DNA of 64,000 bases, taken from Bryoerythrophyllum caledonicum (Eukaryota; Streptophyta; Bryopsida; Pottiales; Pottiaceae). The position numbers and the translations under genes were made by a program. Below, piece after piece: positions 40,085 through 64,000 of this stretch (its first letter is position 1; every line of letters starts with the position of its first letter). The stretch covers positions 5,721,519-5,785,518 of the forward strand of contig OZ020521.1 of assembly GCA_963971425.1 (NCBI GenBank), written 5' to 3'. Below the pieces are notes generated by a model. That model made no database searches. It saw only the letters and a list, made by a program, of their open reading frames with translations, and was not told where the DNA came from.

Positions 40085-40850
40085 GTAAGCATGCTTGAGA
40101 AATTTGATGGTACACGCTCCAAGTTTTGAGGGTTTGTCAATCAAATTTGGTTAATAATCGCCTTACAATTGGAGCGCTACCCTACAGAAGAGTCACAAGT
40201 CGGATTGATTAAGACGTTGTTTACGGGACAAGCTTTATCATGGTTTGCTCCCTTGTTTGAGAAAGGTTTATCCATCTTGAACAACTATAACACGTTAATG
40301 GAGGTCTTTGCGGAAGCATTTGGAGAACATGACAACGCTTGTTGGGCAACAACAAAGATTCAGTCCTTATGGCAAGCGACACGTTCTGCATTGGCTTACG
40401 CCTCAGATTTTAGACAACTTGCGTGCGACATCAACTGGGATAAAACAATACTTGTAAGCCAATTCTATTTGGGCTTGAAGGATATTGTAAAGGATTTGTT
40501 GTTGTCACTCTGAAACCGCAAACGCTCAATGAGGCAATTAGTCAAGCGGTCAAGTGTGACAATCGGCTCTTCCAATGTCACCAGGACCAGAGCTCATGGA
40601 CTCTATCAAGAGAGCAGACGATCCAACAGACCTCATCTATGTTAGTGAGCAGTCCGAGTTCTCATTTGGAGGTTGCAGATATGCAAATCAATGCAATAGG
40701 TGTCAAACATCTTACTCCGGAAGAGAAAAAACGTCGGATGGAGGAAGGACTATGCTTGTATAGCGGCAAAGGAGGTCATAGAGTCCCCAATTACTCAAAA
40801 AAGCTGAATCAACATAATATTAAGATCAGAGCTCCCATAGTCTAGGAAAA
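40085..40850 (+). pseudogene. Gag remnant of the broken gypsy element
   Basis: A capsid-type segment (ALSWFAPLFEKG, AFGEHDNACWATTKI) in 40169-40513 is followed after a frameshift by a knuckle region reading CLYSGKGGHRVPNYSKK near 40750. The expected CX2CX4HX4C knuckle has lost its second and fourth cysteine (Ser and Tyr). Several frame changes. Confidence 0.75.
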
Positions 40851-41039
40851 TGAAGATGCCCAGCCACAATGGAAACCGTGCGGCTAGACAATTCACCTTT
40901 ACAACAACATTTAGGTTCCTCTCTTTCCGCTCAACATGCACATTGTTTTACAATTCCCTTTTTTTTTAGTCCTTAGAAGCTTAAAACCACCGTTTTGTTA
41001 GATTCATCAACATTAGCTTGTTTTTAAGATGAAGAATTT

Positions 41040-41480
41040 GTCAAGAGTCAGAGATTCCCTCTAGTCCAGAAATCTCAGCCCGTCCATGTAGAAGTGATAG
41101 ATGGACAACCTTTGTCTTCAGGCAGTGTTACCAATGAAACAATGCGTTTAGAAGTAACATTTGAAGGCCATAGTAGCTAAATTATCTTCAATGTCATTAG
41201 AACCCCATCAAATCCTATTATTCTTGGTCTCTCCTGGTTAGAAAAATACAACCCATCTATAGGCTGGAAGTTGAGAAAGATGACTTTCCCCTTCCTTTTG
41301 GAATATCCAGACAATAACCCTGTTAGAAAACCTGTTAGCAAACGTGTCAGAAAATCACAAATGAAGAAAACCCTCTTCAATAGTGCAAGGGCGTTCGTAA
41401 GGCCGTCCAAAGAAGGCACATCGTTTGTCATCTATGCGGCTCTAACTAGTGAAGAGAAGACCTCAGCAGCAAGTATTCCT
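41040..41480 (+). pseudogene. Protease region remnant
   Basis: Frames around 41090-41260 contain a block ending NPIILGLSWLEKYNPSIGW, the typical C-terminal end of a gypsy aspartic protease. The DSG/DTG active site is not clearly visible, and stops interrupt the frame. Confidence 0.6.
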
Positions 41481-42408
41481 GAGTAGTGTAAGGACTTTGA
41501 AGATGTGTTTTTGAAGAAGAATGCCGACATACTCCTGGAGCACCGTCCATATGATTGTGCAATTGATTTGGAAGAAGGAGCGCAACCGCCCTTTGGCCCG
41601 ATCTACAACCTATCGCAAACGGAGGTGGCGGAATGACGGAAGTATATTGACAAGAATTTGGCCAAGAACTTCATTCGCCACTCCAAGTCACCAGCTGCAG
41701 CGCCTATTCTATGTGTGAAGAAGAAGAATGGATCATTACAAATGTGCGTGGATTATCAAGATCTCAACAATGTAACAAAGAAGAATCACTATTTATTGCC
41801 TTGATTTCTGGACTTTTGGAACAACTTGGGAGTGCAAAGGTCTTTACCAAGATTGACTTGCGTGGAGCTTATAACCTTGTACAAATCAAGGAAGGAGACA
41901 AATAGAAGACATCTTTTTGTATAAGATATGGCCATTTCAAGTACAATGTCATGCCTTTTGGCCTTACAAATGCCCCAACCATTTTTTAGCATATGATGAA
42001 TGACATTTTTCGGGAGCACCTTGACGACTTTGTTGACATCTATTTAGATGATATTATGATATTTTTCAAGAATGAAGAAGATCATGAGAAGCACGTTCGT
42101 TTGGTCCTTGAAAAATTATGCAAGCGAGGACTCTACCGTAAGCCAAAGAAATGTGTATATCACCAAACCGAGATGGCGTTCTTGGGATTCATCGCAACTA
42201 CAGAAGATGGACCCAAAGAAGGTAGAAGCTATAGTATCTTGGGAAGTTCTGAAGATGGTTCAAGACATACAGTGTTTTCTTGGCTTTGCTAACTTCTATC
42301 AAATTTCATGAAGAATTATTCACTAGTGGCTACTCCGCTCAAGCTGTTGACATGCAAAGACAAGCTTGATTGGGGGTTGTCAGCAGACAAGGCATTTCAA
42401 GATCTTAA
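41480..42408 (+). pseudogene. Reverse transcriptase remnant, split from RNase H by a MITE
   Basis: Blocks in order: [41 protein letters not shown], then FGLTNAPT-like, then VDIYLDDIMIF. The last is the catalytic YxDD box, with L in place of the usual I/V. At least three frame changes. The frame reaches AFQDL at the TTAA where the MITE is inserted. Confidence 0.82.
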
Positions 42409-42785
42409 CCCCTAAAAGCCCAAGTGTATGTGGGGCGTACGTTTTGGATTTTGGGCACGTTCCTAAAATTTGAAAAATAATCCTTTTAAAAAAAAACTCT
42501 TACACTAGATTGTTCCTCATAAGAGCTCCATGGAGATATTTTTAATATTATTTTTGGATTCATGGTTTGAAAGTTAGTACCATTCCAAGTTAGAAATGGG
42601 GACTGCGGGCAATCCAAAATTTTGTTAGAAGCCTCTATTGACATTGAGATTTTCCATACATATAGAGAATTATATCTTCTTTGAGAATGCCACAAATATA
42701 AGGTTTTATTTCCCTCCTTAAACATTGCACTAGAATCAACAATTTGAAGTGTTTTTGGTGTGAAATTGTCACGGGCTTTTAGGAG
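42409..42785. mobile_element. 377-bp piggyBac-like MITE inside gypsy pol
   Basis: TTAA at 42405-42408 and 42786-42789. Ends CCCCTAAAAGCCC and the complement CTCCTAAAAGCCC match at 12 of 13 positions. The left half resembles element D (GATTTTGGGCACGTTCCTAA) and the right end resembles B (TTGCACTAGAATCAAC, GTGTTTTTGGTGTGAAATTG), so it is an internally deleted or recombinant form. The gypsy frame continues in phase from one side to the other if the element and one TTAA are ignored. Confidence 0.9.
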
Positions 42786-42789
42786 TTAA

Positions 42790-43260
42790 GACGGCATTTA
42801 CAACCGCGCCAAACTTGGTGCATCCGGATTTTATGAAGACATTCTATTTTGAGACTGATGCCTTGGGATTTTTCTTTGGGAGCTATACTTTTGCAGATGG
42901 GAGAGGACGAGAAGCTTCATCCAATTGCATTTTACTCTCAAAAGAATTATGCTACAAAGATTACTTATGAGATTCATGATAAGGAACTTCTTGCTATACT
43001 TTTCAAGAGTGGCGTCATTTTCTTGAAAGAGCTGCACATCCAGTGATTGTGTATACAGATCACAAAAATTTGGAGTATTTCATGTCATCTTGTGTTTTGA
43101 ATCGGCGCCAAGCTCAATGGAACATGTGGCTTTCCAATTTGATTTTGTTATCACTTATCAACCGGGGAAGCAACAAGGACTATCTGATGCTCTATCAAGG
43201 AGATCGTATCTTGCGCCCAAGGCTGGAGAGGCAGCATTTGATTGACACTATACAACTTTG
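42790..43260 (+). pseudogene. RNase H remnant of the broken gypsy element
   Basis: Begins AFTTAPNLVHPDF and FETDALG (the ETDAS box), then [16 protein letters not shown], the last catalytic block. Frameshifts lie between 42890 and 43040. Confidence 0.8.
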
Positions 43261-44546
43261 TTGAAGCCAAAATTATTTTGCCTTTGCGCTATTGTTATAT
43301 CAACACCTATTGATGTTGACTTCCTTGACCAAGTGCGCATCACAACCATTGAGGATCATGTGGCCCTCGACATCAAGCGTCACCTTGGTAAAGACGACAA
43401 ATTTAAGGTGGAGGGAGATCTGTTATACTTTGAAGAACATTTATTCATCCCAAAAGGTATGACACGACTTTGTGTTCTTCAATCTTGCCATGACTTCCGA
43501 GCTCGAGTCATTTTGGATACAACAAGTTTTCGGAACTTTTTTCTAGAGATTTTTGGTGGCGCAAGATGTGGGAGGATGTAAAGAATTTTGTTACCTGTTG
43601 TAACAGTTGTTCAAGGTCCAAAAATCCCCAGCATTGCCCTTATGGTCTCTTATAGCCATTGCCTATTCCACGCCGGTCATGGTCTTCGGTCCATATGGGC
43701 TTTAATACATATTTGGTGTCATCAAATTCATTTGACAACATTTTTGTTGTGGTGGATCGGTTTACAAAGATGGCGCACTTTGTCCCTTGTAAGAAGTCTT
43801 TGTCAAGTGAAGACACGGCAAGACTATTTCTTGATAATGTGTATTGATATCATGGTCCACCAGACGATATCGTATCTGATCGGGGAACTCAATTTGTATA
43901 AAAGTTTTGGGGATCTCTTTTTGAGATATTGAGAGTGGATATCAACCTCTCATCAGCTTTCCATCTTCAAATTGACGTTCAAACAAATGGGTTAATCAAG
44001 TTCTTGAGTAGTATTTACAATGCAGTATCAACTATTAGCAAGACAACTGGACGACATACTTGTTGCTAGCAGAGTTTGCTTACAACGATACTCTTCATGC
44101 TTCAACTCAACAAATGCCATTTTATTCCAATTATGGTTATCATCCAAAGCTTAATTTGTTGAGTTCACCGGCAAATAGTAACCCAACAACGGATGACTTT
44201 GCACGGCAACTATCGCAAATTTAAGATGTTCTAAAGCTTCAACTGCAAGCCGCCCAAGAGTCTTACAAGACATCTGCAGACAAATTTTGCAACCAAGCCC
44301 TTGCTTTTCAAGTTGGAGATAAAGTATGGCTTCTTCGACCAAAATTTAAAGACCAAGCAGCCTTATGAGAAGTTGGACTATCGGAGATTGAGACCATTCA
44401 TCATCCAGAAGCAAATCAATTTAATGGCATTTCGTCTTGAGCTGCTAATTTCCATGAAGGTACATCCAATCTTTCATGTCTCTCTTTTAGAACCTTATCG
44501 AGAGTCATCATTTCCAGGAAGAGTACGACAACCACCGCCTAATATC
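43260..44546 (+). pseudogene. Integrase remnant of the broken gypsy element
   Basis: Contains the core strand VVDRFTKMAHFVPCK (43740-43800), DIVSDRGTQF (43870, DxGxxF block), then a C-terminal KVWLLRPKF and KVHPIFHVSLLEPYRES tail (to 44540). The zinc-binding N-terminus near 43480-43600 is damaged. No chromodomain is visible before the LTR; the polypurine tract and LTR start are deleted there. Confidence 0.8.
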
Positions 44547-54496: not shown

Positions 54497-54569
54497 TTAA
54501 CTTTAATTTTTTAGAACCGCAAAATTATCTAACTTTACAAGTTGGTGTGTATGCCCTTCAAGTGAACTG

Positions 54570-54785
54570 ACATATAAATGAAATAACCTCAAAATGAAAT
54601 GACTTCCAAATAAAATGACCTCCAAATGAAATTACCTCAAAATGAAATTATCTCTAAGTAAAGATGACCTTGAGATAAAATTACCTCCTAGTGAAAGATG
54701 GCTTCTAGATGAAACGACCTCAAAATAAAATGATCTCCGATTGAAAGATGACCTCTACAGAAAATGACTTGTAAATGAAAGAACT
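54570..54785. repeat. Degenerate tandem repeat AAATGACCTCCA
   Basis: About eleven units of 18-21 bp with the consensus (A/T)AATGAAATGACCTC(C/A)AAA, diverged by substitutions and small indels. Confidence 0.85.
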
Positions 54786-54789
54786 TTGT

Positions 54790-56327
54790 TGATAAATCTT
54801 CAATCCAAACATGTGAAAACACATAAATACAAATATTGTAGGTTAATCCTTACACACAAGAAGAACACGCAATTAAACAATGATGCACTTAGCCAAGTGC
54901 ACTGATTGCTGGTAGAAAGCCGCATGTCACGTTAGTTGATGGCAGGTGGTTGTTAGGCTCTATATGGCTTGTTAAGAGTCAATAGTAGACTTAGTATAGC
55001 CAAGACGGCCATGTATTGGCTATTGGGGGGCTAGACTAGTGTTTTTAGACTGTTAGAGGTGTGAACGGAGCTATTATGGGGCTCTTTTGGGGTGGTTGTA
55101 ACCCTTGGCCGCCCCCTTGCTTCTTCATTCTCTTCAAGTCTTGCATGTTCTTGTAGTTTGAGTTGATAGGAGTTGGAGCATGTTGTTGTAGATGATGGTT
55201 GGTGCTTTGCCAATCTTTTCACAAAGTGCTACTCCTTTTCTCAAGCGTTTTTGTGAGACTAATCCCATTGAGACAAAGTAGGAGTTTTCTTGGAGTTTGA
55301 GGAAGCTTATTACTTGAAGAGAATGGATTAGGTGCTGAAATTGTAGCCTTAGAGTTGTTAAGTAGCTTTAGTGTGTTGCTTTGGTGCTAAAGGCGTTGGA
55401 TTTGAAGTTCAAAAGTGTTGCCAAGTTGAAGTTGGGTGCACAAAGCTATGGAGGTGCTGATTTGGACAAGGAGGGTATTGGGGAGCTTGGGGAGTTGACA
55501 AGAAGAACTTGGAAGAAGCCCTTAAGCTCAAACAACCATCTCCAAGTCGTTTCGGCGAATTCTGATACATAACAAGAAAAATATGTGAGTTTTAGTTTTG
55601 CTACCGAAACCCCAATGTGTGCTGGACCAAACTAACAAGAGTGCTGTTTTGGTGTTTTGGGGTCATTTTAGTGCTTATTTGGTGTTAGAAAGACCACAAA
55701 TTGTATAAGCTTTCCGAAGACTCCTAAATTGTCAAAAACCGCCAAGAATTGCAAAAGTTATGGAGTTTTGAAAATTTGTGCAAGGGTTTGTTTTTGGAAG
55801 AGCTTGTGGTGGTTGTTGTTGATGTTTTTCGAGCGTTGATAGCTTGGCAAAACGAGAGAGACGAAGACCGGTTGACTTTTGCAAGTTACCAAGATATTTA
55901 TTGGGGTAATTTTGGAAGTTACTGGGATATTACTAGGGTAAATTTGGAAGTTACTGGGATATTTACCGGGATAATTTTGGAAGTTACCAGGGTATTTACT
56001 AGGGTAATTTTGGAAGTTACCGAGGTATTTACGAGGGTAATTTAGGAAGTTACCAAGGTATTTACTAGGGTAAATTTGGAAGTTACCAAGATAATTTCTG
56101 GAGTAATTTGGGAAGTTATCAAAGTTATTTTTTGGGGTAATTTGGAAGTTATCAATTTTCACCGACGATACCGTCCCATATTCTGTGGTTCCTTATTCTT
56201 ACCTTGGAATTTAATCCAACCTTAGAGCCCGCAACAGGATAGGCAAACAAAGAGTGGACGCCAGTGTTGTGAAAGATTCAAAGTCCGATAATAGGTCTAT
56301 TGAAGATTTAATGTTCGAAGTTCGCCT
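54790..56327. other. Upstream flank of the methyltransferase retrotransposon, possible 5' LTR
   Basis: No gene supported. The segment just before the gag ATG should contain the 5' LTR and leader of the element, but no second LTR copy exists in the window for comparison. TGGACGCCAGTG at about 56257 is a possible primer-binding site, unconfirmed. The minisatellite at 55882-56155 lies here. Confidence 0.35.
55882..56155. repeat. 33-bp minisatellite upstream of gag
   Basis: About eight units of consensus GGTAATTTTGGAAGTTACC plus AGGGTATTTACTAG, 31-34 bp each. Because most units are 33 bp, the frame stays open on both strands over most of the block (plus to 56042), giving a misleading repeated peptide. 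Confidence 0.9.
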
Positions 56328-57677
56328 ATGGTACAAACACGTACTCGCGACTACAACGTTGTACATGAGGTTGAAATTGGTGGTGAGGAGGAAATAAAGG
56401 AGCTACCTCTACCATTGGTGAGAGTTAATCCACTCAATTGTTGGAGGATTAGCACCTTTGGCAATATGGACGACCATGGTGGCGGATCTATGGTTCGTGA
56501 CCGCTACTCGGGGAGAGCTGAGGGTGTTGCCTTCAATGACTGGAAGACTAGATTTCGATCATGGCAACGGACACAGAGACAACGCAATCCATTATTCAAT
56601 GATTGGTGGGCTTTTGAGCAATTGCCTAATCATCTAGAGTTTGAGTCGCTGCAAGCTTATGATTCTTGGTTTGAGGATCATAGAATTGAGCTTGAGGAGG
56701 TGGAGGACTACTGGGCTCGGAGAGTAGAATTGGTTACGGCGTTGAAGGAGGGAGCTGCAACTCCAGCAGCTGTGGCCTCGAGGACCGGTGATGGAGATGA
56801 TGAACAAGGAGAGGAGGTTACCTCGGGTCCTGATGTGGCAAGAGTTGCAAGACTAAGATCAAGAGCTGCTGTTAGTAGCTCCGAGGGGCCAACACCCACA
56901 TTCATATCCCGATTGTCTAGGGCGTCAACTGAGGCCATAGCCACTATTGGTCCACCTCCCGTGTTTGATCCTCTCCGATTGTTCTTTGAACATTTGGAGG
57001 TGGAGTTTGGTGGCATCCGGCGAGATCGCATGCGTCACATCCAGGACTTCAAGAAGGAGGTTGGAGACACCCCCCGCATCATGTATGCAAGGCTTTCAAA
57101 ATTTGCACGTGAGAGCGGAGATGCGTTCACTGAACGCCAATTGGTGGAATTTTACATGGGGAAGCAAGACAAGAAGCTTCGAGATATGGCCCATCCACAT
57201 ATGTTATTGGCATATGGAGGCCGAGCAACTTTGGCTCAAGCTTTTGCCCTTGCGGAACAATTTGATCGAGCTCTATGTGTAGAAGAGGCTGGTAGAATGT
57301 CATCTGTCATGACTTCAACAACAAGCCAAAATAAGGTTATTGTTGGTGGATCTAGTAAGAGCCAAGGGGGTACAAAATCTTCCAAACAAGTTGCAATGGC
57401 AGCCGAAGTAGAAGTCACGGCTAATCCTCATATGCGATGTTGGGATTGTGGAGAACCATGCCACAGTAAGAAAAATTGTCCTACCAACTCATCATCAAAA
57501 GGCAAGGAAGGGACACAATCTTCTTCTAACAAGGCCAATGTAGTTGGGACAAACAAAGGACAACAGAAGAAAGCACAAGCTGGAAGCACACCACCAAAGT
57601 CTTCTCATGGACCTTGTGGTAGAATTGGCCATACAGAGGCTCAGTGTTGGATGAAGAATCCACAACTGAGGCCTTAG
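56328..57677 (+). CDS. Gag polyprotein with CCHC zinc knuckle
   Basis: 449 codons from the ATG at 56328 to a TAG. The N-terminal part is charged. Residues about 205-320 resemble a gypsy capsid (DPLRLFFEHLEVEFGG, then FARESGDAFTERQLVEFYMG). A CCHC knuckle (CWDCGEPCHSKKNC, about residues 368-381) fits CX2CX4HX4C. A second knuckle near the end (GPCGRIGHTEAQC) lacks its first cysteine. The frame continues in phase after the TAG, so the stop is probably a mutation rather than the natural Gag end, although gypsy elements with stop-codon suppression exist. It would package the element RNA into particles. Confidence 0.85.
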   Translation: MVQTRTRDYNVVHEVEIGGEEEIKELPLPLVRVNPLNCWRISTFGNMDDHGGGSMVRDRYSGRAEGVAFNDWKTRFRSWQRTQRQRNPLFNDWWAFEQLPNHLEFESLQAYDSWFEDHRIELEEVEDYWARRVELVTALKEGAATPAAVASRTGDGDDEQGEEVTSGPDVARVARLRSRAAVSSSEGPTPTFISRLSRASTEAIATIGPPPVFDPLRLFFEHLEVEFGGIRRDRMRHIQDFKKEVGDTPRIMYARLSKFARESGDAFTERQLVEFYMGKQDKKLRDMAHPHMLLAYGGRATLAQAFALAEQFDRALCVEEAGRMSSVMTSTTSQNKVIVGGSSKSQGGTKSSKQVAMAAEVEVTANPHMRCWDCGEPCHSKKNCPTNSSSKGKEGTQSSSNKANVVGTNKGQQKKAQAGSTPPKSSHGPCGRIGHTEAQCWMKNPQLRP

Positions 57678-58373
57678 TCATTTACTCCACAAGTTGCTGA
57701 TGGAGGTGCATCAAACCGTAAAGGCAACAATCTAGAGGCACGTATGGGGTAGTTGCAAAATACACTTGCACTCCTTTTTGCAGCCAGAGCAAATATTACT
57801 CCAACACCATCTAATTCTAAGCCTGGACAAGATAGGTTTGAATACGGTGCTCTGGGTGAAGTAGTTGCTGCAGTGGCTACTAGATCACAAGCTCAACCTA
57901 TATCAGGTGCACCCACCGTGGGAGAGACTTCAGCTTCTTTAGGTGGGCCTAATATTCGCCACCAAGGGCCTCATGATAACATAGGGCAATCAAGATTGCC
58001 TATGACATTTGGCTTGGCGGACGTAGTGAATGATCCATCGATTGGAGTAACTTCTAATGAACAAGATTTATTAAAGAAGGGAGATATGGTAAAGAGTTTG
58101 GCGCTTAAACTCTTAGAGGTTCCACTATTTTCAGAGGTCCAATTCTTGAGTGGCAACTTTGATGCGGCTGCCGTATATCATATGGCAGGGAAGATGATGC
58201 AAGATACAGTTCAAGTGCCTGCCGATTCAGCCATGATAGAAATGGAAAAGCCTCCATGTGTTAATGGTGAAGAAGTCTCAAGGAATGATGCTGCTAATGA
58301 AGCAGCAAACGCCTTGCAATGTTGAAAAGGGTGGCAAAAATAATCTCTTTTATCAGCTGAGTTTGAAAGCGGC
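57678..58373 (+). pseudogene. Gag-protease linker, same frame with four stops
   Basis: The frame of the upstream gag continues through TAG at 57675 and 57750, an open stretch of 190 codons (57753-58325), then TGA 58323 and TAA about 58338, before the protease. Content is Pro/Gly/Thr-rich followed by acidic helices (VVNDPSIGVTSNEQDLLKKG); no domain recognised. Confidence 0.6.
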
Positions 58374-59229
58374 TTGACTTCAACTGCAGGGGCTGCCAAT
58401 GATGTTGAAGTTGCCACAAGCTATCTGGCAACAGTTCCAGCTCGGACAACTCGGGAGCGATTACAAGTTAAACCTGGAGTAGTGCATTTGGCCATTTCAG
58501 GCCATGTATTTGCTGTGGCTCGGGGTGATGCATCTCAAATGTTTCCAGAGAAGGTACTACTTGATACAGGAGCTCAACCGGTTATGCTAGGCAAATTATT
58601 AGCTCAGAGTTTGGGGCTTTTGGTTGGCGACCTGGAGCCATGTCTTTTTACCATAGCTACATCGCTTGGAGGCACAGAACAACCTACAAGACTTACCGAG
58701 GAACCCTTACGACTTCGGTTCAAAGTAGGCACTGATGCGTACACTCACATTTATGTTAGGTGTGTTGTAACAAGTGCTACAAGCTATGACATTCTTTTGG
58801 GGCAGCAAACATTGTATCCCATTGATTTTGGTCATGATTCTTGGACTGAAGAAGCATGGTTCCGACCGGGGTGGTCACAAGTGGATGGACGGAAGGAAGT
58901 AATTCCTGTCACCTTCGGTGTTTTTGTTGGTGTGGTTGAGGGATTGGTGGCAGTATATGGATGTGCTGCGGAATGGTTTTTAACTGGAGATTTATTGCTA
59001 GAGGGCAACATGTCTTCTACAGACTCACCTCCAGAGTTGGCAATGCAAGCACATAGCAAAATCAAGTCGTTTGAACAACATCCCAAGGATCCTATACCAC
59101 CATGGATTTCACCAGAAAATTTAACTCAGCAATGTGAAGAGTTAGTGGAGGGGGTTCCTCCACAATTTTGGAAACCTCAATCCACACCACCACCACTACA
59201 ACAACTCGTAGATCTTCACAATGACTCTG
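58374..59229 (+). CDS. Aspartic protease domain of the methyltransferase retrotransposon
   Basis: Within the open frame 58374-59771. The block VLLDTGAQPVMLGK near 58554 carries the DTGA active site, and SYDILLGQQTLY near 58781-58816 is the hydrophobic strand preceding the flap/C-terminal part of retropepsins. It would cleave the polyprotein. The first codon used here is not ATG; this is an internal part of a polyprotein, so no separate start is expected. Confidence 0.85.
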
Positions 59230-60614
59230 GGGGCATAATTTTAGTGGAGCTATTTGCTGGACTTGGTACTGGTTTGGCTGTTGCATTGGAGGCCGGATTG
59301 TCTATACGAAGTTATACATATGTAGACAATAATATTGTGGTGAGCAGGGCTGCCAAACATCATTTAGAGATGTTGAGGCTTCAATATCCAACACAGCTTC
59401 CCGCAAGCGCCATTCAAGGTTGTATGTCTCGAGTTCCTTCAGATATTGCCTTGATTGGAGAAGAGGATCTTCGAAGGTTGGGTAGAGTAGACCTTGTGAT
59501 GGCTGGATGGCCTTGCCAAGGTCATTCCCGGGCTGGATCTGGCCAAGGACTCCAAGACCCCCGCTCAGGTTTATTTTGGGAGCTCTTGCGCTTGTTACAT
59601 TGGTGGCAAAAAGAGCAGGCTACAAGTATGGCCTATATCCTTGAGAATGTGCCTCCACTACAAGATATTAGAGCCCAAATTCACGAGGATGTCAAAGTGG
59701 TATGTCACCACTTAGGTGACCCGGTGGCTGTAGATGCTGCAGCTCTTGGTTCCTACGCCCATCGTTTATGATGGAAATGGACTAATTTGGCCCATGGGCT
59801 AGGAATTTCAGCTGTATTACATCGCACAACACGCCCTGAGGGAAGACACCTTGATGACATCTTGGAGGAGGGACGGTCTACTCAAGCGGTGGTGCAAGAT
59901 GATCAGCCACCTTTGGCTATTGTTAACCGTATTGGAATGCCTCGATTGGCATTTCCTACTTTGATGAGTTATCCTCGGTCGTTTGCTTTCCGCAATGGTG
60001 GAACCGGCTTGGTGTTTGACGCTACTTCTATGCGATTGGAGGAGCCATGCGCTAATGAACGAGAGCGAGCTATGGGATTTCGGACCGGTGCCACAAGTGG
60101 GCCTGGTTTGACAGAGTCTCAACGGCGACATTGCCTTGGGCAAGCCATGGACTTGACTTCTATGGTTTGGTTCTTTGGAATATGTCTTGCAGCTCAACGG
60201 CACAAAAGATTTGGCATTGACAACCATCTGGGGGCAGATGCTTCAAGCGAGGGGGCAAAGATAGTTGTGCCTCTAACTGTGGAGAAGATGAATTCTCTAC
60301 ATGCCAAGGCTTGGCATGATGGTCGACAAGCTTGGAACCAAGCACTTGAGAAGAGAAGGGCCGAAGATGCTGTGGAGTGGCTTGTACTAGATGAGTTAAG
60401 AGGACAACGTGTGTTGTCAGCATTGGCCCAAGACCTAGGCATGGAAGATGCCAGGGAGAAGTTCAAAAGGGTGTTTCTTACGAAGGAAAATCCTTATTTC
60501 ATTACATCATCTCATTCTAAAGATGGTGTTGATGGTGATTCAGTTGGAATAGCAATGAGTGATGATGCATCTATTGTCCTGGACAAGGGCGATGGTGCAA
60601 GCTCGTCCAATTAG
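59230..60614 (+). pseudogene. Cytosine-C5 DNA methyltransferase domain in retrotransposon pol
   Basis: All key C5-methyltransferase motifs appear in standard order. Motif I is LVELFAGLGTGLAVALEAG (59241). Motif IV is GWPCQGHSRAGSG, with the catalytic Cys codon at 59514-59516. Motif VI is YILENVP (59635). Motif VIII is LGSYAHR, one stop codon, then WKWTN (59745-59790). A target-recognition segment follows, then ANERERAMGF and the motif X-like RRHCLGQAMD (60125). The protein would transfer methyl groups from S-adenosylmethionine to C5 of cytosine. A TGA at 59769 splits the domain inside motif VIII at a position where related enzymes have Arg. It lies between protease and RT, in the same frame as both. 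The origin looks like a eukaryotic DNMT3-like capture, but the subfamily needs a tree. Confidence 0.88.
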
Positions 60615-61085
60615 CAACCAGAGTTGGTGCTAGCACCGGCCAAGGAGCCCCTAAAGAAGAACATAGTTGTGCCAATGTCAATGAACAAGGATTGGGAAAT
60701 GGATATAGGCATGGGGCTCACTTGTACAAAGGCATGGAAAGTGCGAGCTTTCATACGCTCGTACAAGGCTTGCTTTGCTTTTAAACTTACTGACTTGGAG
60801 GACTATATAGGCAAGCCAGTAAGGATACAATTAGAAGATGACCATCTAGTATTTAGACACCCATATAAGCTCAGCCTTTCTGAAAGAGATGGAGTCAAAT
60901 TGAGATGCAAAGAATTATTGGACGCCGGATTGGTAGAACTCTCAGATGGAGAGTATGCATGTGCCACGGTGATGCCAACAAAGAAAGATATTCTTGGAAA
61001 TTGGATGGAGAAGCGGATGTGTGGAGATTACCGTCCTATAAACAAAAAGACAAAAATCGGATTGATATCCTATGCCAACACCTGA
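60615..61085 (+). pseudogene. Reverse transcriptase, N-terminal part
   Basis: Contains SYKACFAFKLTDLEDYIG, then FRHPYKLSLSERDGVKLRCK, the fingers region DAGLVELSDGEYACATVMPTKK, and CGDYRPINKKTK. A one-base shift plus a TGA near 61055-61065 separates it from the palm domain, where the frame moves to the one starting at 61072. Confidence 0.82.
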
Positions 61086-62232
61086 GGAGATATTTGATGC
61101 AGTTGGAAAGGCAAAAGTTTTAAGTACTTTGGATCTCAGGTCTGGGTACCATCAATTGCCATTGAGACTGGAAGATAGGGTGAAGATGACATTTTGGGGG
61201 GTAGATGATGATGAAAGAGATATGCTTTTCCATTGGAAGTTTTTACCTTTTGGCTTGAAGAATGCTCCGGCGGAGTTTCAACGTGTAATGGATCAAGTCT
61301 TAAAGGGGTTACCATTTGCTCGGTGTTACATAGATGATGTAATCATCTTTAGTAATACACCAGAGGAACATGTAAGACATTTACAACAAGTCTTTGATAG
61401 GCTACAAGCTTGGGGTCTTTGCTTACATCCTAGAAAATGTAAATTTTTCCATGACAAGTTGCCTTACTTGGGGCACATGATTACACGAGGAGGATTGGGA
61501 GTACAGGAGGCGAAGGTAGAAGCTTTGAAGAGCATACCAATTCCTAGGGATGTATCAAGGTTGAGAGCATTTATGGGACTAGCTAACTATTATCGACGAT
61601 TTGTTCGTGGGTTTAGTCTCTTAGCCAAACCTTTGACCCAATTGACTCGAATTGATCAAGAATGGATATGGGGTCCTCATCAAGAAAATGCATTTGAGGC
61701 TTTGAAGGGAGCACTTGGTTCAGCACCAATGTTGAGGCGGCCCAATGCTCAACGGCCTTTCCAGCTCCATACAGATTGGAGTATGTTAGGAATTGGTGCC
61801 GTGTTAACTCAAAAAGATGATGATGGCAAGGAGTATGTCATTGCGTACGCTTCACGAAGCAACAATGATGTAGAGGCCAAGTATTCATCATATGAAGGGG
61901 AGTGCTTAGCAGTTGTGTGGGCCGTTGCCCACTTTCGCCCATATATTTACGGCCAGAGCTTTATCCTTGTGACAGATCATCAACCTTTAAAATGGTTGAT
62001 GGAATCTGATAAACTTATAGGAAAGTTGACTAGATGGGCCTTGCTATTACAAGAGTATGATTTTGAAGTAGTCCACAAGGCGGGATTGCAAAACTTAGAT
62101 GCTGATGGCTTGAGCCGCAATCCAAGTCCGTTGGAAGAGGACTTGGCTGGTGCCAGGTGGCATGGTACTTGTGATCAGGAAGTAGTGCCTGGGTGGCATG
62201 CTTCATCTTATTTGGCATGGATGAAAGGATGA
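61072..62232 (+). CDS. Reverse transcriptase palm and RNase H
   Basis: 386 open codons. RT motifs: STLDLRSGYHQLPL (first catalytic Asp), FLPFGLKNAPAEFQRVMDQV, and CYIDDVIIFS (YxDD box), then LGHMI and LRAFMGLANYYRRFV of the thumb. RNase H: FQLHTDWSMLGIGAVL (first Asp), SSYEGECLAVVWAV (Glu), ILVTDHQPLKWL (Asp), and NLDADGLSRNP (last Asp). Complete and apparently competent on motifs alone. It converts the element RNA to DNA. Confidence 0.93.
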   Translation: MPTPEEIFDAVGKAKVLSTLDLRSGYHQLPLRLEDRVKMTFWGVDDDERDMLFHWKFLPFGLKNAPAEFQRVMDQVLKGLPFARCYIDDVIIFSNTPEEHVRHLQQVFDRLQAWGLCLHPRKCKFFHDKLPYLGHMITRGGLGVQEAKVEALKSIPIPRDVSRLRAFMGLANYYRRFVRGFSLLAKPLTQLTRIDQEWIWGPHQENAFEALKGALGSAPMLRRPNAQRPFQLHTDWSMLGIGAVLTQKDDDGKEYVIAYASRSNNDVEAKYSSYEGECLAVVWAVAHFRPYIYGQSFILVTDHQPLKWLMESDKLIGKLTRWALLLQEYDFEVVHKAGLQNLDADGLSRNPSPLEEDLAGARWHGTCDQEVVPGWHASSYLAWMKG

Positions 62233-63273
62233 TCTGGCCAAGATATAGGAGGAACTGGACTGGATGTTGTTGATGAAGACTTGGATGCAAAAGGACCTCG
62301 AGTCACCATTGATGTGTGGAAGAACCAAGGAATTCTACATCGTCTTCAACATGGGGAGTTTTTGCCTAATACCACACCTCAAGAAAGAGACCGGATAGCT
62401 CATTGTTTGGCTAGGTTTCATTGGGAGAGTGGACTTATATTCCGAATATGGCCGGATGGAACACGAAAGGTTGTGCATAGGCCGGACCAACGTCTTCAAC
62501 TAATACGTCAAGTTCATGAAGAGTTGGGCCATTTTGGAGTACGTCGGACATATTCAATGTTACGTGGTTTATATTGGTGGATGGGCATGCAACAAGAGGT
62601 GGAAATCTATGTAGGAAGGTGTGAAGTGTGCGATTGAGTGAGATCAAGCTTCAACACTCTAACTCCTCAATTATGGCCTTTATCAATCATGGGTTTGGGT
62701 TATAGATGGAGTCTTGACTTTGCTGGACCATTAATAACCACATCACGAGGTGCCAAGTATGTACTTGTGATGGTAGAGCACTTCAGCAAATGGATTGAGT
62801 AGGTAGCACTACCACAAAATTCTACAGAACTAGCAGCAGCAACATTCCTAGACCGTGTATTGGCTAGATTTGGAACTCCAGCTGAAGTGTTGATAGACCA
62901 AGGAAGAGAATTTTTGGGAGCATTTGAAGAGCTTTGTACTAAGGCTTTGATTGATCACCGTACTACATCGAGAAATCATCCAGAGGCTGATGGATTGGCA
63001 GAGAGGGTGGTTCAAACAGTCAAACGCGGGCTACGCAAATACGGGTTGTTGGCAGGCAATCATCAAGATTGGGATTTGAAGTTGCCATGGATAGCAATGG
63101 GCTATCGTTTTAATCGACAAGCCTCTCTTGCATCATATAGTCCTTACCAGCTATTGTATGGCAGAGAGTCAATATTACCATCGGCACTAAGGGAGAAATT
63201 GGATTCTGTAGTGGACTTGGATGACCCTGGAGTTTGGGCAGAGGTGCTACGAGATCGAGCCGAGTATTTCTAG
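62233..63273 (+). pseudogene. Integrase, zinc-binding and catalytic domains
   Basis: The HHCC domain is intact at about 62509-62635 (QVHEELGHFGVRR with two His, then GRCEVCD with two Cys). The catalytic core shows LDFAGPL (first Asp, near 62715), VLIDQGREFLGAF (second Asp, 62885), and NHPEADGLAERVVQTVKRG (Glu, 62975). In-frame stops at 62230, 62635, 62803 and 63271 interrupt it. It inserts the DNA copy into the genome. Confidence 0.88.
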
Positions 63274-63279
63274 AGAGCC

Positions 63280-63753
63280 ATGCCAATAGCTATGGAAAAT
63301 TTGGCAATAGTGCAACACAGAGATACTTTGAGATATGCACGTATTAGAAGTGGGGCTTATAAGCCTCAACTTCGTCGATTTAAGGTTGGAGATTACGTTT
63401 ATTTACAACGTGAGACACCAACAACCTTGGATGTTCGGGCAGGGAGGACCATTTTAAGGGTCAAGGCAATTTTGCCCAGTGGAGTACTTCTTTTGGAGGG
63501 AAAAGATGGACAAGAGTGCAGAGATAACACAAAAAATTGTGCTCCTTGTCATCTGCCAATTGAAGGGACTGTAAATCCAAAATTGGCAGTAGTTCCATCT
63601 GGATACAAATGTTTTGTTTGTAGAGAAAGCAAGGGTGCTGCAACTATGTTACTATGCGATTTGTGTCAACGTGGTTGGCATTTGGCGTGCCTTCGGCCGC
63701 CATTAGTTGTTCTCCCTACTGGACGTTGGACTTGTCCCCGTTGTAGGGAGTAA
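63280..63753 (+). CDS. Integrase C-terminal domain with PHD finger
   Basis: 157 codons. The first part (FKVGDYVYLQRETP, then GVLLLEGKDGQECR) is the SH3-like/GPY-type tail that follows gypsy integrases. Residues about 109-157 are a PHD finger: C-x2-C, 11 residues, C-x2-C, 4 residues, H-x2-C, then W-x-C-x2-C (CFVC, CDLC, HLAC, WTCPRC). PHD fingers read the H3 tail, often H3K4me3, or unmodified H3. In this position many plant gypsy elements have a chromodomain, so a role in choosing integration sites is the natural inference. The frame ends in TAG at 63751-63753. Confidence 0.9.
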   Translation: MPIAMENLAIVQHRDTLRYARIRSGAYKPQLRRFKVGDYVYLQRETPTTLDVRAGRTILRVKAILPSGVLLLEGKDGQECRDNTKNCAPCHLPIEGTVNPKLAVVPSGYKCFVCRESKGAATMLLCDLCQRGWHLACLRPPLVVLPTGRWTCPRCRE

Positions 63754-64000
63754 TCCATTGATACTACTTTTCAAAGTAGTTGTTGATGATTTTTCCTAAT
63801 AACGGAAGATGCAAACACTTATGTCATTCTATGTTGGAGCATGACCGGTGGCTCTTGATATTGTAGCTTGGAGAAAGAATTTGTGGAGTCAAACTAAAAG
63901 TTGGAAGCGATTGAGGATGGGGCTCAAATGCACCCAGCTTACCCCTTCACTGATGATTGATTCAAGCCTAGCTATGGACAGGGCTTGTCGCATGTCTTCT
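63754..64000. other. 3' flank of the methyltransferase retrotransposon
   Basis: No coding frame. Contains GGAGAAAGAA and AAAAGTTGGAAG purine stretches that could be a polypurine tract, but no LTR start can be shown because the matching 5' LTR is unknown. Confidence 0.35.

Follow-up and report, generated by a model that had tools for sequence, protein, structure and literature searches.

Gypsy retrotransposons with a built-in DNA methyltransferase (DNMT) form a class that is already known from KnitGypsy-Dnmt3 of Klebsormidium nitens (2018), and the statement in the initial annotation of the present locus, that captured DNMTs occur in retrotransposons of charophyte algae and of dinoflagellates, agrees with what is described (PMC5890265). 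According to that description, KnitGypsy-Dnmt3 unites Gypsy domains, repeats "the same as that of a DIRS retrotransposon" and a DNMT3-related, unrearranged, intronless DNMT, which is reported as part of the Pol ORF and has a Ka/Ks below 0.2; the isolated enzyme gave no methylation in yeast, a result that its authors deem inconclusive. Of the dinoflagellate elements, SymbioDIRS-Dnmt3 has A-coding-B-A-B repeats and a tyrosine recombinase, and SymbioLINE-Dnmt carries its DNMT in an upstream ORF and lacks LTRs (PMC5890265). A statement in a 2019 paper has land plants "such as tracheophytes" without such elements. DNA methylation normally has retrotransposons as its targets, and a retrotransposon in which strong selection preserves a methylase turns this relation around. 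Here, such an element is described from the moss Bryoerythrophyllum caledonicum, in a window (the whole stretch of contig OZ020521.1 that was analyzed) of 64,000 nucleotides.

Organization of the element

The element extends from 54925 to 233 bp beyond the window end (64233 in window numbering), i.e., over 9309 bp, with every reported domain on the + strand. Its features are as follows:

54921-54924, unstranded: left copy of the 4-bp target-site duplication, CGCA (CGCA, then TGTCACGTTAG ... ACACAACA, then CGCA)
54925-55311, +: repeat A, left end of the element, starting TGTCACG; identity of 96% to the sister copy L104 and of 97% to L107
55312-56327, +: leader, with 33-bp tandem repeats at about 55832-56160
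56328-60614, +: ORF1, gag-protease-DNMT, interrupted by five stops and ending at the native TAG 60612-60614
57438-57479, +: CCHC zinc knuckle of gag, CWDCGEPCHSKKNC, read from the translation
58551-58805, +: aspartic protease, with LLDTGAQ at 58557-58577 (PF13650, E 2.1e-4; 22.3 bits, below the Pfam cut-off of 24.3, in a position that fits a protease)
59232-60209, +: C5 DNMT core, DNMT3-like, canonical motif order (PF00145, E 9.1e-12; 45.5 bits, above the Pfam cut-off of 22)
59244-59273, +: DNMT motif I, VELFAGLGTG
59505-59528, +: DNMT motif IV, catalytic cysteine, GWPCQGHS
59640-59657, +: DNMT motif VI, LENVPP
59757-59771, +: DNMT motif VIII, broken in the window copy by TGA at 59769-59771
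60060-60155, +: DNMT motifs IX and X, RERAMGF and LGQAMDL
60612-60620, +: native stop and putative readthrough context, TAG CAACCA (CARYYA)
60615-63753, +: ORF2, RT-RNase H-integrase-PHD, starting in frame with ORF1
61066-62232, +: reverse transcriptase (RT) and RNase H (PF00078, E 8.6e-30; PF17917, E 2.1e-38; PF17919)
62485-62631, +: integrase zinc-binding domain H2C2 (PF17921, E 7.8e-17)
62803-63273, +: part of the integrase catalytic core, rve (PF00665, E 1.3e-5; 25.9 bits, below the Pfam cut-off of 32.6, in a fitting position)
63610-63744, +: C-terminal PHD finger of the integrase (PF00628, E 3.8e-11)
63754-64000, +: 3' untranslated region
just beyond the window: purine tract (from 64098), repeat B and right end (64233)
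234-237 bp beyond the window end: right copy of the target-site duplication, CGCA

The order of the Pfam domains bears out the initial reading that a C5 DNMT sits between the protease and the RT of a Ty3/Gypsy element with a PHD tail, the latter placed after the integrase. The protease, RT, RNase H and DDE integrase stand in Gypsy order, the best solved-structure match of the RT is that of Ty3 (4ol8, E 1e-65), the target-site duplication is short and the ends are of the TG...CA type. The integrase is 83% identical to that of the copy L017 over 156 aa; Gag has no Pfam match, its CCHC knuckles being read from the translation. Motifs I, IV, VI, VIII and X, named at the outset, could all be located, but in this copy VIII is the one broken by the TGA. 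Likewise, the DNMT lies in frame in a Gypsy polyprotein insofar as a single frame (56304-61085) leads from Gag through the DNMT to the start of the RT, but a native TAG intervenes before the latter. The start and end of ORF1 match those of the unbroken homologues P0034-P0038.

Decay and unusual ends

The window copy is a dead, old and decayed member of a Ty3/Gypsy family that is also represented by young copies elsewhere in this genome. Its ORF1 has in-frame stops at 57675, 57750, 58323, 58341 and 59769, and its ORF2 has a frame change near 61050, followed by stops at 62230, 62635, 62800 and 63271. Deamination to TAG or TGA cannot account for every stop, that at 58341 being TAA.

No ordinary LTR pair was found in the window. 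The window copy has an A-coding-B layout, two of the three copies of its subfamily with the 3' end read terminate in B alone, and five of seven young copies have DIRS-like split repeats, A-coding-B-A-B; a standard two-LTR element is therefore not what is seen. The ends are TGTC...GACA, with AACA for GACA in the window copy, and 4-bp target-site duplications flank six of the seven copies with both ends seen. No primer-binding site was recognized by eye 3' of repeat A in L074 and L017. Thus, the element is Gypsy by its proteins but has unusual ends. DIRS elements share the split direct repeats of the young copies but have a tyrosine recombinase and are not known to make target-site duplications; with an rve integrase and such duplications present, this is no true DIRS element. 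In sum, the initial annotation was right about a DNMT-Gypsy element but overlooked its decay, its unusual ends and the native, leaky-type stop.

Elsewhere in the window, a second Gypsy element, without a DNMT, occupies 41562-44003. Among nine other window ORFs scanned, the sole pass of a Pfam cut-off is a Gypsy gag, and no second DNMT copy was found within the window.

A family of copies and its relatives

At least 92 scored matches to a protease-DNMT query, the window's own counted, occur in the 437-Mb genome, of which 89 extend into the DNMT and three cover the protease side alone, two of the latter with a DNMT piece listed alongside. In addition, for one young subfamily the ORF1/ORF2 junction has 375 matching sites in the genome, against 0 for the reversed control. 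These copy counts show that the DNMT belongs to the element family and refute the view that a host DNMT gene landed by chance in a single Gypsy copy, a next to impossible reading that has the rarity of the class in its favor and nothing more; the liverwort and Sphagnum homologues and the intronless state of the DNMT also speak against it. As for descent from a host gene family, the two host DRM-like genes examined have a rearranged motif order and are split over exons, in contrast to the unrearranged, intronless DNMT of the element; 150 of 475 candidates, mostly element copies, were scored in this host scan, and an unrearranged host DNMT3 is possible beyond these.

Homologues are named from Marchantia polymorpha, Calypogeia fissa and Sphagnum, which places DNMT-Gypsy elements in bryophytes and hence in land plants, a finding that appears new relative to the 2019 statement; no account of bryophyte elements of this kind was found in the literature listings and passages searched. 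Klebsormidium is absent from the named homologue rows, most rows carrying no name. Searches of viral contigs gave no relatives apart from 16 loci whose matches span short stretches of the query; these loci are read as phage or bacterial methylases.

Affinity of the DNMT and selection upon it

Among solved structures, the best match to a profile of 21 relatives is DNMT3A (E 1e-19), followed by HaeIII (2.9e-7) and 4onj (3.3e-7), labelled a DNA methyltransferase and taken by us to be tobacco DRM; no DNMT1 or CMT chain is among the best 60 of the 103 chains matched. This match and the canonical motif order are features of the DNMT3 family. In a tree of 42 of 43 chosen rows (P0072 was dropped by the length rule), built without DNMT1, CMT or DRM rows, DNMT3A has a branch length of 2.49 changes per column and falls beside the bacterial rows, the bacterial and DNMT3A rows being short.

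Between a young copy and L017, dN/dS is 0.055 for the DNMT core, 0.018 for RT-RNase H, 0.153 for gag and 0.335 for the tail. The DNMT is thus under purifying selection in young relatives of the window copy, which is a new result, and the related copies, including those of mosses and liverworts, suggest that natural selection keeps the enzyme working. It might instead be retained for binding or for RNA methylation within the Gag product, as its joining to a zinc-knuckle Gag rather than to the RT in this lineage and the negative yeast result for the Klebsormidium domain (PMC5890265) would allow; this is unlikely, however, given that WPCQ and ENV are invariant across the 21 rows of the DNMT alignment (A2) and that the core is so constrained.

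The copies show an excess of C-to-T changes in CG, CHG and then CHH contexts, which suggests that they are methylated, by whatever agent. Such an excess would also be expected if the DNMT acted after insertion, methylating the element or its neighborhood so that it hides in silent chromatin with less harm to the host, its production at Gag level being incidental. Insertion-site effects and slower spread are discussed by de Mendoza et al. in PMC5890265. The nearest solved chains to the PHD finger are those of CHD4, PHF12, KMT2C, PHF21A and Lid. The finger resembles those of silencing proteins, in line with such a role. Against it, de novo-type enzymes are already encoded by the host (the two DRM-like genes), the Gypsy element at 41562-44003 does without a DNMT, and little selection would act on the copy that had made the enzyme. 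A post-insertion role can be regarded as a serious but rather improbable alternative.

A stop codon between the DNMT and the RT

UAG followed by CARYYA is the type I readthrough signal, the leaky-stop context of tobamoviruses (PMC5382211). This sequence, with ORF2 continuing in frame beyond it, occurs at 45 of the 57 junctions read, from four lineages of the genome and one outside contig, the others being CAACGA (four, with no fit to CARYYA), TAA (two) or not found (six). The residue after the Gln varies (Pro, Leu or Ser) while the nucleotides remain YYA, and as a measure of chance, the window contains 1833 TAG triplets, of which 8, including that of the element, are followed by CARYYA. These patterns indicate that the TAG is native rather than decay, again a new result.

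That the stop is instead decay or a fixed loss, with ORF2 made from another start or message, is very unlikely. The further stops of the window copy, a Met at residue 21 of its ORF2 that would permit an internal start, the four junctions without an exact CARYYA, and the Marchantia gene models P0017, P0020 and P0043, in which the DNMT continues into the RT, all lean that way; the continuity in these models is probably a predicted intron, and in one further relative, P0046, the DNMT runs into the RT without a stop. Yet the stop is kept in four lineages, L017 and L074 have it although their frames are unbroken, ORF2 remains in frame, and that of L017 has no Met before residue 117. A native stop of this type suggests that Gag-protease-DNMT might be the bulk product and RT-integrase-PHD its putative readthrough extension.

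A proposed life cycle

Overall, we moderately favor a Gypsy family with a DNMT3-like enzyme made at Gag level by a leaky stop, methylation of the cDNA, a cut at the B/A junction and integration. Most ribosomes would halt at the TAG, yielding Gag-protease-DNMT, and a methylase in the bulk product would therefore be packed into the particle at Gag level; the few that read through would make RT-integrase-PHD. The DNMT may then methylate the cDNA inside the particle or soon after nuclear entry, a circular or permuted DNA form may be cut at the B/A junction (GACA-GC-TGTC), and the integrase would join the cut DNA to chromatin. The PHD finger may help by binding unmodified tails of histone H3, and its nearest solved chains, listed above, count in favor of this overall scheme. 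A wider reading is tentative and on balance doubtful: a widespread Gypsy lineage that uses a virus-like leaky stop to make the DNMT within the capsid precursor, every particle serving as a chamber for methylation of its own cDNA, and in which a DDE integrase cuts a circle within the repeat before insertion, a mixed DIRS-Gypsy life cycle. The leaky stop predicts both the amount and the location of the enzyme, and self-methylation is therefore testable in bryophytes such as Marchantia. The split repeats together with a DDE integrase raise the question of how such elements integrate.

Comparison with known systems

KnitGypsy-Dnmt3, compared by its published description, resembles the present family in its Gypsy domains, its DNMT, its DIRS-type repeats and its low Ka/Ks, which the dN/dS of the DNMT core parallels; the DNMT of KnitGypsy-Dnmt3 is reported in the Pol ORF, the DNMT here follows the protease, shares an ORF with Gag and is separated from the RT by a leaky-type stop, and the words PHD, protease and readthrough are absent from the main text of PMC5890265. 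SymbioDIRS-Dnmt3 and SymbioLINE-Dnmt are alike in having a DNMT within a retrotransposon, and the former also in its repeats, but the former's tyrosine recombinase is replaced here by a DDE integrase with 4-bp duplications, and the latter differs in its separate ORF and lack of LTRs (PMC5890265). The combination of split repeats with a DDE integrase and 4-bp duplications is new here. Polyproteins from metagenomes (group B, within P0022-P0023 and P0047-P0116) share a related DNMT (about 31-42% identity over the matched part), RT, integrase and PHD, but the four scanned (P0047, P0050, P0054 and P0056) have the order RT-RNase H-DNMT-integrase-PHD in one frame, the DNMT of P0047 having been placed by a separate analysis. 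Finally, the junction parallels the tobamovirus type I signal (PMC5382211), one lineage of the present family reading CAA-TAG-CAA-CCA, whereas the candidate leaky stop lies here between the Gag-protease-DNMT and the RT of a nuclear retrotransposon.

Architecture and Decay of the Window Copy

On the plus strand at the right end of the window lie, in order, gag, protease, C5 DNA methyltransferase (DNMT), RT, RNase H, integrase and PHD domains. In translation, a single frame (56304-61085) spans gag, protease, DNMT and the start of RT, bearing out the initial annotation's placement of the DNMT in frame between a gypsy protease and RT, although stops interrupt it at 57675, 57750, 58323, 58341, 59769 and 60612; the PHD tail it described is likewise present after the integrase. 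The frame shifts near 61050, and ORF2 (RT-RNase H-integrase-PHD) has further stops at 62230, 62635, 62800 and 63271; this copy is dead. Protease and integrase core score slightly below Pfam cut-offs, and gag is without a match in the Pfam scan of the element. Under the motif names that we assign to the DNMT blocks, I, IV (PCQ), VI (ENV), IX and X are retained, whereas VIII, earlier listed as present with I, IV, VI and X, is interrupted by the TGA at 59769. The span first proposed, 56328..63753, captures the coding part; the element itself, with ends set by stretches of two sister copies (L104 with L105; L107) that are 93-97% identical, is 9309 bp long, with CGCA on either flank.

Features of the element
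54925, + strand: left end, TGTCACG (from sister copies)
55832-56160: 33-bp tandem repeats in the leader
233 bp beyond the window end, + strand: right end, ACACAACA (from sister copies)

A run of 16-bp repeats (54551-54795) lies directly to the left. The window also holds a second Gypsy remnant (40130-44003) with a Retrotrans_gag domain (PF03732) and RT and integrase pieces showing 28-31% identity to ORF2 of L017, an element on a contig from outside this genome; no DNMT match was found in this remnant.

Copies, Host Genes and Selection

A genome search for further copies, as the initial annotation had proposed, shows that the DNMT is not confined to one copy. In this genome (437,360,962 bases, 894 contigs; the window is C9:5721519-5785518), a protease-DNMT query gave at least 92 scored match rows, which form three tiers and several of which hold a 1353-aa open frame; the young junction 27-mer (up to three mismatches) occurs at 375 sites, against none in a reversed control. 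PF00145 has 123 scored matches; of eight such loci retrieved, seven belong to a second lineage and one is bacterial-looking. The latter (L088, C14:16016358-16017317) is a 370-aa unbroken C5 methyltransferase frame within a 22-Mb contig, and might reflect transfer, contamination or a misjoin. Two host methyltransferase genes examined on C3 (L102, L103) are DRM-like, with motif blocks rearranged in order and spread over exons.

L017 (CADCWO010000201.1), a 9285-bp contig filed in a cyanobacterial (Synechococcales) MAG, carries a whole eukaryotic DNMT-Gypsy element with 89% DNA identity over 6400 bp to a young copy of the moss genome. For one pair, young copy L074/L075 versus L017, a Nei-Gojobori script gave dN/dS of 0.018 for RT-RNase H, 0.020 for integrase (240 codons), 0.055 for the DNMT core (326 codons), 0.064 for protease, 0.121 for PHD (55 codons), 0.153 for gag and 0.335 for the 91-codon tail that follows the DNMT.

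A Native Stop with a Readthrough Context

Five unbroken homologous ORF1 proteins (P0034-P0038; 1427-1451 aa) match the start of the window's ORF1 and end in ...SSSN or ...PSTN, identical or similar to its end at TAG 60612, past which the same frame continues into RT. At the L017 junction (AAG TAG CAA TCA), the first Met of ORF2 comes no earlier than residue 117; the window's ORF2 has one at residue 21. We inspected 56 junctions in this genome, and L017 as the 57th.

Stop contexts at the ORF1/ORF2 junction
Own subfamily (window included; L022-L025, L049): TAG CAACCA 4/5; TAA 1
Middle tier (L026-L048, L050, L051): TAG CAACTA 17/25; TAG CAACGA 4; TAA 1; not found 3
Young tier (L054-L073, excluding the one-base slip L067): TAG CAATCA 18/19; not found 1
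Second, Marchantia-like lineage (L089-L095): CAA TAG CAACCA 5/7; not found 2

Thus TAG-CARYYA stands at 45 of the 57 junctions, L017 counted; because copies within a tier are kin, the independent support comes down to five types of junction, and a single genome supplies four of these. Only 8 of the 1833 TAG triplets on both strands of the window have this context, the element's own included. The codon after CAA varies by lineage (CCA, CTA, TCA), as does the residue, and the letters remain YYA. UAG followed by CARYYA is the tobamovirus type I readthrough signal, according to passages of PMC5382211. These sequence patterns are strong evidence for selection on a predicted readthrough at the ORF1/ORF2 junction.

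Ends and Integration

A young copy (C9:13.29 Mb) runs A1 (365 bp), coding region, B1 (108 bp), A2, B2, with A2 99.2% like A1 and B2 100% like B1. Among seven young copies, B-A-B stands at the 3' end of five (B2 being partial in one of them), B alone stands in another, and in the last neither repeat was found there; in the window's subfamily, one of three 3' ends is B-A-B and two (the window, C2:20.34 Mb) are B only. The four young copies compared show 99.2-99.7% identity between A1 and A2, so those insertions are young. The outer ends read TGTC...GACA and the inner B|A junction GACA-GC-TGTC. Six of seven copies with both ends read have 4-bp duplications (TTTT, CATT, TCTA, AGCA, TAGC, CGCA), the seventh (C9:13.29 Mb) showing GAGA versus GCGA flanks. 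Since a purine tract adjoins B1 and the leader adjoins A1, reverse transcription should give B-A ends; in the inserted form the cut falls between B and A, for which a circular or permuted DNA form would account. B-only copies might derive from circles with a single repeat or from B1/B2 recombination.

Relatives and Kind of DNMT

Searching protein collections with the window's DNMT region, another step suggested at the outset, returned 24 proteins; two further searches seeded by relatives returned 45 and 65, query proteins counted in. The closest protein found is P0035, 81% identical across a 349-aa stretch of the DNMT core. Homologues named Marchantia polymorpha, Calypogeia fissa and Sphagnum show 31-48% identity over the matched part. 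The relatives fall into two architectures: group A, including the window element, with the DNMT between protease and RT, and group B, with RT-RNase H-DNMT-integrase-PHD within one frame (domain scan of four proteins, and motif script) and DNMTs about 31-42% identical to the window's. In P0046, an A-type protein, the DNMT passes into RT without a stop. Group B polyproteins (P0047-P0116) measure 1900-3300 aa, many continuing for hundreds of residues beyond the PHD. A DNMT tree of 42 rows unites group B (98/91) but not group A; a node with 82/94, short of the starred level, holds A, B and the protein P0025 together.

When 21 group A proteins were combined into a profile, it matched 103 chains of solved structures, the best 60 including DNMT3A (E 1e-19), HaeIII (2.9e-7), 4onj (3.3e-7; which we take to be tobacco DRM) and HhaI (1e-4), and no DNMT1 or CMT chain was among these best 60. 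With the first part of the window DNMT as a single sequence, HaeIII was the sole match (E 1e-4).

Probable Methylation Traces and the PHD Finger

Single-row C-to-T changes per column at 22 middle-tier loci were 0.54 in CG, 0.40 in CHG and 0.29 in CHH, against 0.11 for T-to-C at A/T sites; at 18 young junctions they were 0.23, 0.19 and 0.10, against 0.03. Given this excess, the copies probably carry methylation in plant-like contexts, whichever enzyme placed it.

The solved chains nearest to the PHD finger include CHD4, PHF12, KMT2C, PHF21A and Lid, and further KMT2D, WSTF, ATXR5, BAZ2 and AIRE, some of these identities being presumed from printed names. Several of these proteins bind unmodified H3K4, and the tryptophan that H3K4me3 readers typically carry is absent from the window's finger; a role as reader of unmodified H3K4 may be offered as a lead only.

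Comparison with Known Elements

The initial annotation had credited this class to charophyte algae and dinoflagellates; passages of PMC5890265 place DNMT-Gypsy elements in one charophyte alga, whereas dinoflagellates have DNMTs in other element types. Passages of a 2019 paper describe such transposons as absent from land plants, such as tracheophytes. Within the literature searched, the homologues in named bryophytes are new, as are the second architecture in metagenomes (group B), the putative leaky-stop layout with the DNMT on the Gag side, and the combination of split repeats with a DDE integrase that leaves 4-bp duplications. The A-coding-B-A-B order of the young copies is itself that of DIRS elements, and the repeat order of KnitGypsy-Dnmt3 from Klebsormidium nitens is likewise DIRS-like, according to a figure legend of de Mendoza et al. 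(2018; PMC5890265).
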